DNA of 27,770 nt from positions 1 through 27,770 of the IMG/VR virus record IMGVR_UViG_3300018481_000061. The stretch is one strand, 5' to 3'. Both the position numbers and the translations under genes were made by a program. This DNA comes from a virus. The notes beneath the pieces are model-generated. The model searched no databases. It was not told the DNA's origin and saw only the letters and a list, made by a program, of their open reading frames with translations. Shown here piece by piece: positions 1,847 to 18,796 of this stretch. Numbering within the stretch: position 1 is the stretch's first letter; the number at the start of each line of letters is the position of its first letter.

Positions 1847-2119
1847 GTGGCAGAACGCCTGTACAAGAATCTACCGTACATGGTAGAAGGCATGTATGTT
1901 GTCGGTGTAAAGCCCAGGTCTTTGGGCGAAGGAGTGGTGCCGCTGGTCTACAGTGTAGACTATGCAAAAATCTACCAATGGTGGCTAGACCATGACGGGT
2001 CTAACGCAATATATCAGTGGGCCAGAGGTGCGCTCAGGTGTGTTGGCAAGTATCACCGGAGCAAGTACGGTATCGTGTACCATGCACCAGTCCCACCAGC
2101 GCATATGGATACGGCTTAG
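1847..2119 (+). CDS. hypothetical protein, 90 aa
   Basis: The strongest part is the middle and C-terminus, with VDYAKIYQWWLDHDG, SNAIYQWARGALR and GKYHRSKYGIVYHAP: aromatic, mixed charge and clearly protein-like. GTG 1847 is chosen with GGAG (1833-1836) ten bases upstream. A rival start, ATG 1837, is in another frame, whose product is also Cys-rich but less natural. No signal, membrane or catalytic motif is seen. The stop at 2117-2119 runs directly into a hairpin-rich region that starts with its final G. Confidence 0.5.
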   Translation: MAERLYKNLPYMVEGMYVVGVKPRSLGEGVVPLVYSVDYAKIYQWWLDHDGSNAIYQWARGALRCVGKYHRSKYGIVYHAPVPPAHMDTA

Positions 2120-2350
2120 GGTGGACATCCCTGCCAGGATGCCTAAGCTATGTACTTTCCACCCAAGGGCTGCCGTCGAGCTTCACTCCCTCCGGCAGCC
2201 TACGGCCAGGAGTGTGTTTATTTGTGGACATCCCGCTAGGAACGGGGTGACGGGCCGCATATGCGAAAGCTTTCCTAGAGGCAAGTAGCGCGGTCTAAGG
2301 GTCTTGCGGGGGCGGAACACTGAGACCTGAAATATGGTGTGGTGCCGCAA
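2119..2350 (+). ncRNA. hairpin-rich intergenic region, candidate upstream part of a structured RNA
   Basis: There is no convincing frame here. Perfect or near-perfect hairpins follow one another. GGGTGGA (2119-2125) pairs with TCCACCC (2158-2164), enclosing CATCC/GGATG (2126-2130 with 2137-2141). GGCTGCCG (2168-2175) pairs with CGGCAGCC (2193-2200). A seven-pair stem lies at 2229-2235/2243-2249, and TTGCGG (2304-2309) pairs with CCGCAA (2345-2350). The density suggests a folded RNA or a structured leader. It may be one molecule with the two tandem hairpins that follow. Confidence 0.45.
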
Positions 2351-2356
2351 CTCTCA

Positions 2357-2503
2357 TGGGGCGTTCTGTCATAAGTCAATGGGTCTAATCCTCCTCGTTG
2401 GCGTGCGGTGGCAGAACGCCCCACCCTCATGGGGTGTCTTGTCATGGTTGCAGCGGTATCCTCCGTCTGTGGCGCGCGCGGTGACAAGACACCCCACCTT
2501 TTT
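2357..2503 (+). ncRNA. two tandem 73-nt long-stem hairpins ending in a T tract
   Basis: Hairpin 1: TGGGGCGTTCTGTCA (2357-2371) pairs with TGGCAGAACGCCCCA (2409-2423). Hairpin 2: TGGGGTGTCTTGTCA (2430-2444) pairs with TGACAAGACACCCCA (2482-2496). Both stems are 15 pairs and both loops are exactly 37 nt, with a 73-nt repeat period. The stems differ at three paired positions and each change is compensated, which is direct evidence that the RNA fold is conserved. Each loop shows ATCCTCC, complementary to a Shine-Dalgarno core. TTTTT at 2499-2503 makes the second hairpin a possible intrinsic terminator. No known RNA family is recognised. Confidence 0.65.
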
Positions 2504-2912: not shown

Positions 2913-3245
2913 ATGAAAGGCCTGCGTATTCTGGTAGTTGCAGGGACAATTGCTGTCATGGCTATGGTTCCGGCCGCAGCCTCAGCGTCATCCTGCACCA
3001 GTCAACCTTTGGGTAGCAATGGACGTAGCTCTAGTATCAGCTGTGACAATGGTGTCACTGGCACCACGTACTGCTATGGTTCAAACAATCGCTTCTGCGA
3101 TACTACCTATAGCACGGGCGTCACAGGTAGCACTGTCTGGTCTTCGAATGGCCGTTACGGTGACACGACGTATTCTAACGGCGCGTCGTCTACAACGTAT
3201 TGCTACGGAACTAACAATCGCTACTGCAACACCACGGGTAACTGA
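2913..3245 (+). CDS. secreted repeat protein (YCYG / NNRYC repeats), 110 aa
   Basis: ATG 2913 has a consensus Shine-Dalgarno AAAGGAGG (2897-2904) eight bases upstream, the strongest in the left arm. Residues 1-24 are a signal peptide: a basic start (MKGLR), a hydrophobic core, and an AAASAS cleavage region. The mature chain is about three Thr/Ser/Asn/Tyr-rich repeats of roughly 21 residues: TTYCYGSNNRFCDTTYS, STVWSSNGRYGDTTYSNG, TTYCYGTNNRYCNTT. Repeats 1 and 3 carry a Cys pair that could form disulfides outside the cell; repeat 2 lacks it. Similar 'GNTTYSNG' proteins occur in bacteria and phages without a known role. A clear terminator follows. Confidence 0.75.
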   Translation: MKGLRILVVAGTIAVMAMVPAAASASSCTSQPLGSNGRSSSISCDNGVTGTTYCYGSNNRFCDTTYSTGVTGSTVWSSNGRYGDTTYSNGASSTTYCYGTNNRYCNTTGN

Positions 3246-12687: not shown

Positions 12688-12729
12688 GATAAATTCTGGC
12701 CATCTCCTGTAAAGGGATGGTATATTCTG
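12688..12729 (+). repeat. dispersed TGGCCATC repeat, copy R2
   Basis: GATAAATTCTGGCCATC (12688-12704), 14 bases, GGTATATTCTG (12719-12729). The end reads TGGTATATT, an extended -10-like sequence. Confidence 0.65.
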
Positions 12730-12740
12730 TCTATATGCCC

Positions 12741-12780
12741 CTAAATTTGGCCATCCTCGTCCCGACGACGGTATACTCTG
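12741..12780 (+). repeat. dispersed TGGCCATC repeat, copy R3
   Basis: CTAAATTTGGCCATC (12741-12755), 14 bases, GGTATACTCTG (12770-12780). It starts only 11 bases after copy R2 ends. Confidence 0.65.
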
Positions 12781-12786
12781 CGATTA

Positions 12787-12808
12787 GATCGGGATCTGGA
12801 TCCCGATC
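12787..12808 (+). repeat. 22-base perfect GATC inverted repeat
   Basis: GATCGGGATC (12787-12796), TG, GATCCCGATC (12799-12808). GATCGCGATC palindromes also occur near 12423 and 12956, so GATC-based dyads are enriched in this region. Confidence 0.6.
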
Positions 12809-12908
12809 CCGGGGGTTCTGCAGTCTCCTTTTTGTCCCTTAGAATAGGTCGCTCGTGGCACTGTCTTCAGTTCAGTTTATAACCCTTGTACCCTGAGGTT
12901 TGGTGGTT

Positions 12909-12951
12909 ATAAAAGGATTTGGCCATCTTTTCCCTGAAGACGGTAGTTTCT
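12909..12951 (+). repeat. dispersed TGGCCATC repeat, copy R4
   Basis: ATAAAAGGATTTGGCCATC (12909-12927), 14 bases, GGTAGTTTCT (12942-12951). The last spacer bases GAAGAC resemble GACGAC in R3 and GAGGAC in R5. Confidence 0.65.
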
Positions 12952-12985
12952 AGGGATCGCGATCTAAATCTGGGGTCACGTTCTC

Positions 12986-13027
12986 ATGGAAAATCTGGCC
13001 ATCTTCCTGCCGAGGACGGTAGTGTCA
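12986..13027 (+). repeat. dispersed TGGCCATC repeat, copy R5
   Basis: ATGGAAAATCTGGCCATC (12986-13003), 14 bases, GGTAGTGTCA (13018-13027). Confidence 0.65.
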
Positions 13028-13086
13028 GTGACGCCGAGGCGTACCTTGAGACGCCGCGCGTCTCGTCCTTAGTGCGTACCCATCCC

Positions 13087-13106
13087 GTTAGTGCGCGCGC
13101 ACTAAC
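13087..13106 (+). repeat. 20-base perfect palindrome
   Basis: GTTAGTGCGCGCGCACTAAC is identical to its reverse complement. TTAGT/ACTAA half-sites recur over the next 100 bases (CATTAGTGTGTGC, CATTAGTACGTGC), suggesting a set of binding sites for a dimeric protein. Confidence 0.65.
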
Positions 13107-13170
13107 CGCGTTAGTATGTGCTTGCATACCACATTAGTGTGTGCTTACATACGGCATTAGTACGTGCTAA

Positions 13171-13233
13171 CTAACTCTTGCAGTTAGCTGGTGCTGCGCT
13201 GCCATGTTAGCGCTTGCTAACTGCAAGAGTTAG
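13171..13233 (+). repeat. 18-pair perfect inverted repeat with 27-nt loop
   Basis: CTAACTCTTGCAGTTAGC (13171-13188) pairs with GCTAACTGCAAGAGTTAG (13216-13233). As RNA this is a strong hairpin without a T tract; as DNA it could be a cruciform or a pair of operators. Confidence 0.65.
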
Positions 13234-13274
13234 CGCTGGCGCTTTCCGCGGGGGCAGCTGCCAGGGGCGGCACT

Positions 13275-13310
13275 AATACGGAGTCTTAGCACTTGCATAC
13301 ACTCCGTATT
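13275..13310 (+). repeat. 10-pair inverted repeat with CGGAGT words
   Basis: AATACGGAGT (13275-13284) pairs with ACTCCGTATT (13301-13310) around a 16-base loop. CGGAGT or ACTCCG occurs again near 13321, 13393, 13400, 13450 and 13461. Confidence 0.6.
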
Positions 13311-13579
13311 TGCATTGCTTCCGGAGTCCAGGTGCGCGGCTGCCACTCTGTCAAATACTCCACATTTGCATATGCTAAGCGGAGGCATTAGCCGGAGTTC
13401 CGGAGTGCTAATATGACATGCTTGCGGATTCTCATATGACAGTCTGGCACTCCGCTTGCACTCCGGAGCCATTTTGCACTCTGTCAGGCTTGCTACATTC
13501 GGGGAATCCGCTTGCGACATGCCCAATGTATTGCGACAGGTTTAGCAGTGAACCTGTAAACACTTTATCAACGTTTGCC

Positions 13580-17571: not shown

Positions 17572-17762
17572 TCGTCTTCCCTTCTCTTAGATAGCGTAAG
17601 GTCTCTGAACAAGTTGCGCTCTGCCATGATGTCTGCTACTTGTTTCTCCAGAGATTCTATGTGTGCGGTCTTGGCAGATACCAGTATTCTCAGCAGGAAG
17701 GTTACGGTGCCTATAAGAGCACCGATAATAGTCCCTACGGTTACGACGTCTGCACCTACCAT
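17568..17762 (-). CDS. membrane-anchored coiled-coil protein, 64 aa
   Basis: The start at ATG 17762 overlaps the upstream stop (TGATG); a GTG at 17798 is a weaker option. Residues 4-26 are one membrane helix (DVVTVGTIIGALIGTVTFLLRILV). Residues 30-64 are a coiled coil (AHIESLEKQVADIMAERNLFRDL). A single N-terminal helix plus cytoplasmic or periplasmic coiled coil is the shape of holin-like and Rz-like lysis proteins, so a lysis role is a reasonable inference from shape and operon, not a demonstrated one. ATGA to the next gene. Confidence 0.65.
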   Translation of the reverse strand: MVGADVVTVGTIIGALIGTVTFLLRILVSAKTAHIESLEKQVADIMAERNLFRDLTLSKRREDE

Positions 17763-18796
17763 CAGAGCGGACTTGGCACAACGGTAGGAGTGCGACACTC
17801 TGGGCGGTTGTTCTCACAGGGCGTAGGAGTAGGTACCACTGTCAAGGTTGGGGTGGGAGTGGGTGGCAGTGGTGTCCTGGTGGGGGTCGGTGGGGCAATA
17901 GTAACAGTCGTGGTTGGCACCCCCGTGGAGGTGAGAGTTGGGACCACAACAATAGTTGCAGTCATTGTGGGTACAGCTGTAGACGTTGATGGAGGGACAG
18001 CTGTAGACGTCGTAGTCGGTAGGGGCATATTGGGCGGGTTTGCGCCTTGTTCCCCATTACCTGATGTGCTGGTCGCCAATAATAAGGTAGGCGCGCGCGT
18101 ATTCGTTACAACGGGTGTATATGTATATACGGGAGCGCGCTCGGGTGTATTCGTATACGCGGGAAGCGCGCGCGTATATATAGGCGAGGGCGTTAGCGTA
18201 GGCGCGGGTGTGCGAGTGGGCGCGCTCAATTCCGCGTTGTGCTCATTGCTCCAAGCATCTTCTGCTTGACCTCCATAAACTGCTGCAAAGTCTGCCTGAG
18301 TTTGCAGAGATTGGCTTGTTAGACGCTGGCCGTCCTGGGTCTGTACTACCTCAGGCTCTTCTATAACTTCTTCAGGCTCTACTATTACTTCAGGTACTGG
18401 TGGAGGCAGGGCAGGAGGGGGTGGAGGTGCTGGCTTGACGGCAGGTTTTATCACAGGCTTGGGGACCGCTGCGATAGCAACTATTACGGTCGCCGATGGT
18501 AAGGGTGTGGGCACTTCGGTAGGTTCCATAGTTGGCGTCTCTGTAGCCGTAGGTGTCTGCGTGGGCACTGGTGTCTGTGTAGGTACTGGCGTAGATGCTA
18601 CCAGAGGAGTAGGCTCTGGTAGAGCAGTATTCTCAGGTACATTGGTAGCCACTTCTACTTCTATATGTACACCAGCCGTAGCTTCCGCAGAAGTTACTTC
18701 CTCAGCTGCTCTCTGGTTCTGGACGGAACCTAACATCAACGCTCCACACAGGCCTCCAACGGAGATGTAGATAGCGCAGTTGAGGTACAGGTTCAT
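17762..18796 (-). CDS. membrane-anchored Pro/Thr-rich protein, 344 aa
   Basis: ATG 18796 has AAGAGG upstream. Residues 1-24 are a membrane anchor (LNCAIYISVGGLCGALMLG). Residues 60-110 are TP repeats (PVPTQTPVPTQTPTATETP) and 115-145 are Lys/Pro-rich (PKPVIKPAVKPAPPPPPALPP). A short globular-looking stretch follows at 160-195 (QRLTSQSLQTQADFAAVYGGQAEDAW). Residues 200-330 are TP/TN/TS-rich, and the end holds PCENNRPECRTP. TonB-like KP/EP segments suggest a periplasm- or wall-spanning rod. No enzyme motif is present. It is typical of Chloroflexota in style. The DNA at 18090-18230 is locally rich in GCGCGC. Confidence 0.65.
   Translation of the reverse strand: MNLYLNCAIYISVGGLCGALMLGSVQNQRAAEEVTSAEATAGVHIEVEVATNVPENTALPEPTPLVASTPVPTQTPVPTQTPTATETPTMEPTEVPTPLPSATVIVAIAAVPKPVIKPAVKPAPPPPPALPPPVPEVIVEPEEVIEEPEVVQTQDGQRLTSQSLQTQADFAAVYGGQAEDAWSNEHNAELSAPTRTPAPTLTPSPIYTRALPAYTNTPERAPVYTYTPVVTNTRAPTLLLATSTSGNGEQGANPPNMPLPTTTSTAVPPSTSTAVPTMTATIVVVPTLTSTGVPTTTVTIAPPTPTRTPLPPTPTPTLTVVPTPTPCENNRPECRTPTVVPSPL

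Follow-up and report, generated by a model that had tools for sequence, protein, structure and literature searches.

In type III toxin-antitoxin operons such as ToxIN and CptIN, a pseudoknotted RNA lies upstream of a small protein gene and is separated from it by a leaky terminator. The antitoxin RNA consists of tandem repeats, each folding into one pseudoknot (PMC8860590). GOLLD and ROOL are phage-encoded structured RNAs of unknown function, about 660–800 nt long. Multiple pseudoknots have been predicted in ROOL (PMC12286853), and STAXI RNAs have several consecutive pseudoknots near genes for DNA-acting proteins (PMC2864571). Riboswitch and attenuator leaders have a structured 5′ domain and then a terminator hairpin just before the gene.

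The RNA described here resembles each of these in part. It was found in the window, by which is meant the whole stretch of DNA analysed, a 27,770-base IMG/VR virus record carrying the phage genes for terminase, portal, protease and major head. Its predicted elements and neighbouring genes are given in Table 1. As in type III systems, a pseudoknotted RNA precedes a small protein gene, here Y; however, its three pseudoknots differ from one another in layout and sequence, the units that do stand in tandem are simple hairpins, and Y matches no ToxN-like endoribonuclease or known toxin in Pfam, PADLOC or solved structures. At ~390 nt it is shorter than GOLLD and ROOL, and a tRNA island is absent (no tRNA was found in the window). 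STAXI repeats one pseudoknot two or three times, whereas the three here are different. Neither GOLLD and ROOL nor STAXI was matched in Rfam. The arrangement recalls riboswitch and attenuator leaders, but here the hairpins before the gene lie outside the core and differ freely from one lineage to another, and neither a ligand nor a known class was found.

Table 1. Predicted RNA elements and genes of the locus (window coordinates)
Feature	Positions	Strand	Details
Gene X, 90 aa	1847–2119	+	41–52% amino acid identity in G003 and G006; stop TAG within 5′ strand of P1
Conserved RNA core, three H-type pseudoknots	2113–2348	+	76–85% nucleotide identity to relatives over pieces covering 2141–2232 and 2296–2350; pair counts; model R2
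Pseudoknot A	2113–2163	+	P1 2113–2119/2143–2149; P3 2120–2125/2158–2163; inner hairpin P2 2126–2130/2137–2141
Pseudoknot B	2168–2214	+	P4 2168–2175/2193–2200, near-invariant loop TYGAGCTTCACTCCCTC; P5 CACTCC 2184–2189 with GGAGTG 2209–2214
Possible 5-codon ORF, MWTSR*	2222–2239	+	TTG TGG ACA TCC CGC TAG, behind GGAGTG of P5
Hairpins P6 and P7	2229–2296	+	P6 2229–2235/2243–2249; P7 2252–2258/2290–2296
Pseudoknot C	2300–2348	+	P8 2300–2304/2323–2327; P9 2312–2315/2345–2348 plus 2317–2320/2337–2340
Tail hairpin unit 1	2357–2423	+	15 bp, 37-nt loop; arms 2357–2371/2409–2423
Tail hairpin unit 2	2430–2503	+	15 bp, 37-nt loop; arms 2430–2444/2482–2496, then CC and TTTTT (2499–2503); intrinsic terminator-like
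Gene Y, 113 aa	2514–2855	+	ATG 10 nt past the T-run; 48–54% amino acid identity, conserved neighbour

No near match to the window was found by blastn among 50,697 phage records. Eight IMG/VR contigs carry relatives of its terminase (79–90% amino acid identity) and three of these, G003, G004 and G006, cover the region of interest. As G003 and G004 are near-identical there, three independent sequences of one phage clade, the window included, were compared. The core is absent from the other terminase relatives, but these contigs are fragments and the absence carries no information; alignments of the helicase (A4) and of Y (A3) revealed no additional clade member.

The gene order X–RNA–Y is common to the three independent sequences. 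Cys/His motifs in Y suggest zinc binding, and no Pfam or PADLOC family or solved-structure relative was found for it; the AlphaFold2 models of X and Y were poor (pLDDT 60–62), and a Foldseek search with Y was uninformative. The window encodes a small secreted-looking protein (2913–3245) between Y and the conserved gene that follows, with a 44-nt repeat that is 77% identical; G003 and G006 have no counterpart between the same genes.

Other regions of the window also drew attention. A non-coding stretch of about 1 kb (12.45–13.7 kb) contains four copies of a promoter-like element at 12690–13030, each consisting of TTTGGCCATC, 15–18 nt and then GACGGTATACTC or TATATTCT. Non-coding hairpins (13110–13233 and 13275–13310) lie at 13095–13392, another possible regulatory or origin region, which is conserved in L081 (83% nucleotide identity over 13095–13188 and 87% over 13354–13392). 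Short GC-rich repeats and overlapping palindromes occur at 18086–18177 inside the minus-strand ORF 17762–18796.

Comparison of the three sequences shows that the three-pseudoknot core is conserved by compensatory change. It could be folded in the same way in all three, and in a structure-guided alignment 155 of 155 helix pair-cells were standard; 42 pairwise double changes were counted and no pair was broken (both counts leave out P7, which is less certain). The double changes were found in P4 (16), P2 and P3 (7 each), P6 (6), P8 (4) and P9 (2). P1 is nearly invariant and P5 invariant, so that both fall outside the covariation test.

As a structure-guided alignment leans towards structure, an unadjusted MAFFT alignment was scored too. 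In this, 85.9% of the cells were paired, against 37–46% for slid versions, and 12 pairs had double changes compared with 5.3 in shuffles, none of 500 being as high. When helices were sought de novo in the structure-guided alignment, the scan gave 9 helices and 25 two-sided pairs, the permutation maxima being 3 and 6 (n = 300). An earlier note on this DNA had proposed a structured phage RNA beside the gene at 2514 with its fold conserved over its sequence. It was right about the kind of element, but had placed it in the tandem hairpins at 2357–2503, and the conserved part is the core upstream.

The same note knew of no RNA family with this layout, and the database searches bear it out. An Rfam scan gave zero matches at the gathering score and, at E values up to 5, only weak unrelated ones below it; no tmRNA was found by ARAGORN. 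Matches to the core motif GAGCTTCACTCCCTC-N8-38-GGAGTG in IMG/VR were limited to the three known contigs, and an exact scan of 84,980 prokaryote genomes gave zero. The covariance model of the core (R2), run on 89 sources and 17 records, returned the four known copies only, and blastn against the 50,697 phage records showed no further relative. The pattern AACACTGAGA-N5-12-TGGTGTGG gave three extra matches (L147–L149), which were put down to chance on inspection: they look coding and the rest of the core is absent. An HDV-like ribozyme was considered for the topology of P1–P3 and rejected, the P4 domain of that ribozyme and an Rfam match both being absent, as was a retron, no reverse transcriptase being present among the window ORFs scanned.

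The tandem hairpins, with which the earlier note began, had been described accurately. Two adjacent units with 15-pair stems and 37-nt loops are spaced by 73 nt, the second ending in TTTTT. Three stem pairs differ between unit 1 and unit 2 and each keeps its pairing (C-G/U-A, U-A/C-G and C-G/U-A); a fourth, previously uncounted, shows a one-sided change from U-G to U-A. There is one G-U pair in unit 1 and none in unit 2. Both loops contain ATCCTCC, though at different offsets (loop position 17 in unit 1 and 14 in unit 2). The folding z-scores were −6.95 and −4.31 for units 1 and 2, with 0/200 shuffles equally stable, and no stem of at least 13 bp with at most one G-U pair arose when the whole window was Markov-shuffled eight times. 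In a gapped alignment the two loops were homologous (1/2000 shuffles as good) and align as diverged copies, so that the units look like the outcome of a tandem duplication followed by divergence. A coding origin for the region was rejected: the period of 73 nt cannot be divided by 3, and the GTG frame that spans 33–35 codons in the relatives shrinks to 8 codons in the window.

After P9, strong hairpins are found at the same place in every lineage, one to three in number and unrelated in sequence. In G006 there is a single hairpin, 16 bp long with a loop of 3 nt, and G003 has three, the last followed by TTTTCTTT. In both the window and G003, 10 nt separate the end of the T-run from the ATG of Y, suggesting an attenuator or a leaky terminator of the kind seen in type III toxin-antitoxin operons; the absence of a T-run from G006 counts against a strict terminator rule. 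The hairpins do not form a family of their own: a covariance model of both units (R1) had no match in the close relatives and a degenerate pattern of the stem had none in IMG/VR, so that no homologue with the 15-pair stem was found, the outcome that the earlier note had itself named as refuting it. From this comparison, the tail hairpins are best described as the lineage-specific 3′ tail of a larger predicted RNA of ~390 nt (about 2113–2503), and the 73-nt duplication as a lineage-specific doubling of that tail in this phage.

A conserved anti-Shine-Dalgarno loop is present in the core, in pseudoknot B. The conserved P4 loop contains CACTCC (2184–2189), the exact complement of GGAGTG. Among the hexamers that precede ORF starts in the window, GGAGTG ranks first. 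It is biased to the plus strand, with plus to minus counts of 20:8 for the window, 19:3 for L105 and 11:2 for L104, and is the usual Shine-Dalgarno-like hexamer of the phage group (the early region of the window, L104 and L105), often overlapping a TGA stop. The possible mini-ORF starts (TTG or ATG) 7–9 nt after the GGAGTG of P5, and its counterpart in G003 and G006 reads MWTSG* with an ATG start. As there are two distinct sequences to compare, and P6 constrains part of the codons, this is no more than suggestive of a 5-codon leader ORF.

Taken as a whole, the locus is best explained by a leader that acts in cis on read-through into Y, a reading to which we would give about an even chance. The last tail hairpin would be an intrinsic terminator or attenuator and, since the 10 nt between the T-run and the start of Y leave no space there for a promoter, Y would be made only via read-through, the degree of which the core would set. 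The middle pseudoknot would mask the Shine-Dalgarno sequence GGAGTG with its invariant anti-Shine-Dalgarno loop CACTCC, and the masked GGAGTG might gate the 5-codon ORF. The conserved core, the same gene order, the tails at the same place, the position of the T-run before Y and the Shine-Dalgarno-like character of GGAGTG all support a leader, although conservation of the neighbours is expected anyway when the three independent sequences all belong to a single phage clade. The core is conserved in all three, and a T-run terminator precedes the gene in the window and G003 but not in G006. No competing (antiterminator) pairing was identified, and the strong invariance of the single-stranded segments, beyond the needs of a simple attenuator, counts against the leader. 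The idea that the RNA is a riboregulator of the gene at 2514 survives as an option in the form of a probable leader, but not by way of the tail loops. In a more detailed and rather doubtful version, the invariant anti-Shine-Dalgarno loop, kept in place by its pseudoknot, would mask the Shine-Dalgarno sequence of the 5-codon ORF (MWTS-G/R), whose ribosome occupancy would report translation during infection and switch read-through of the tandem-hairpin attenuator into Y.

The main rival to the leader is a stand-alone, trans-acting phage RNA, a tentative reading that we would on balance bet against. Here the core would bind a factor of the host or of the phage, be it ribosome, polymerase, a protein or another RNA, the tail would terminate the RNA and protect its 3′ end, and Y would be expressed by leaky read-through. 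This would account for the long invariant loops TYGAGCTTCACTCCCTC and GAACACTGAGA, it is consistent with a 3′-end terminator in two of the three lineages, and large multi-pseudoknot phage RNAs are known, for example ROOL (PMC12286853). However, no promoter of its own was recognised before 2113 (a weak test); furthermore, Y is always downstream in the available sequences.

It is improbable that the two units owe their compensatory differences to template switching at cruciforms, a mutational process that corrects inverted repeats, and not to selection for an RNA fold; the tail would then be plain terminator material. In favour of this, such correction readily affects perfect inverted repeats, and the tail sequences are unrelated between lineages. 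Against this, one to three strong hairpins stand at the same place in 3/3 lineages, so that the presence of hairpins seems to be kept, and the pseudoknotted core is left unexplained.

The mechanism first suggested for the hairpins, a small RNA whose ATCCTCC loops mask GGAGG ribosome sites such as that at 2913, can very nearly be dismissed: although ATCCTCC is retained in both diverged loops and the unit 1 loop pairs on average better with ribosome-binding regions than do shuffles (1/100 as low), the unit 2 loop is no better than shuffles (16/100 as low), the site at 2913 ranks only 25th–26th of 39 by duplex energy, CCTCC occurs in none of the four tail hairpins of G003 and G006, and ATCCTCC is not enriched across the window (3 found, 2.7 expected).

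The cis-acting leader, if correct, would make this locus a concrete test case of a phage possibly gating an early gene through an anti-Shine-Dalgarno loop matched to its own Shine-Dalgarno sequence. The locus also illustrates that what the eye picks out as tandem hairpins can belong to a conserved RNA as its fast-evolving tail. To the few ornate RNAs known from phages it adds a compact one with three pseudoknots, which covariation supports well and Rfam lacks.
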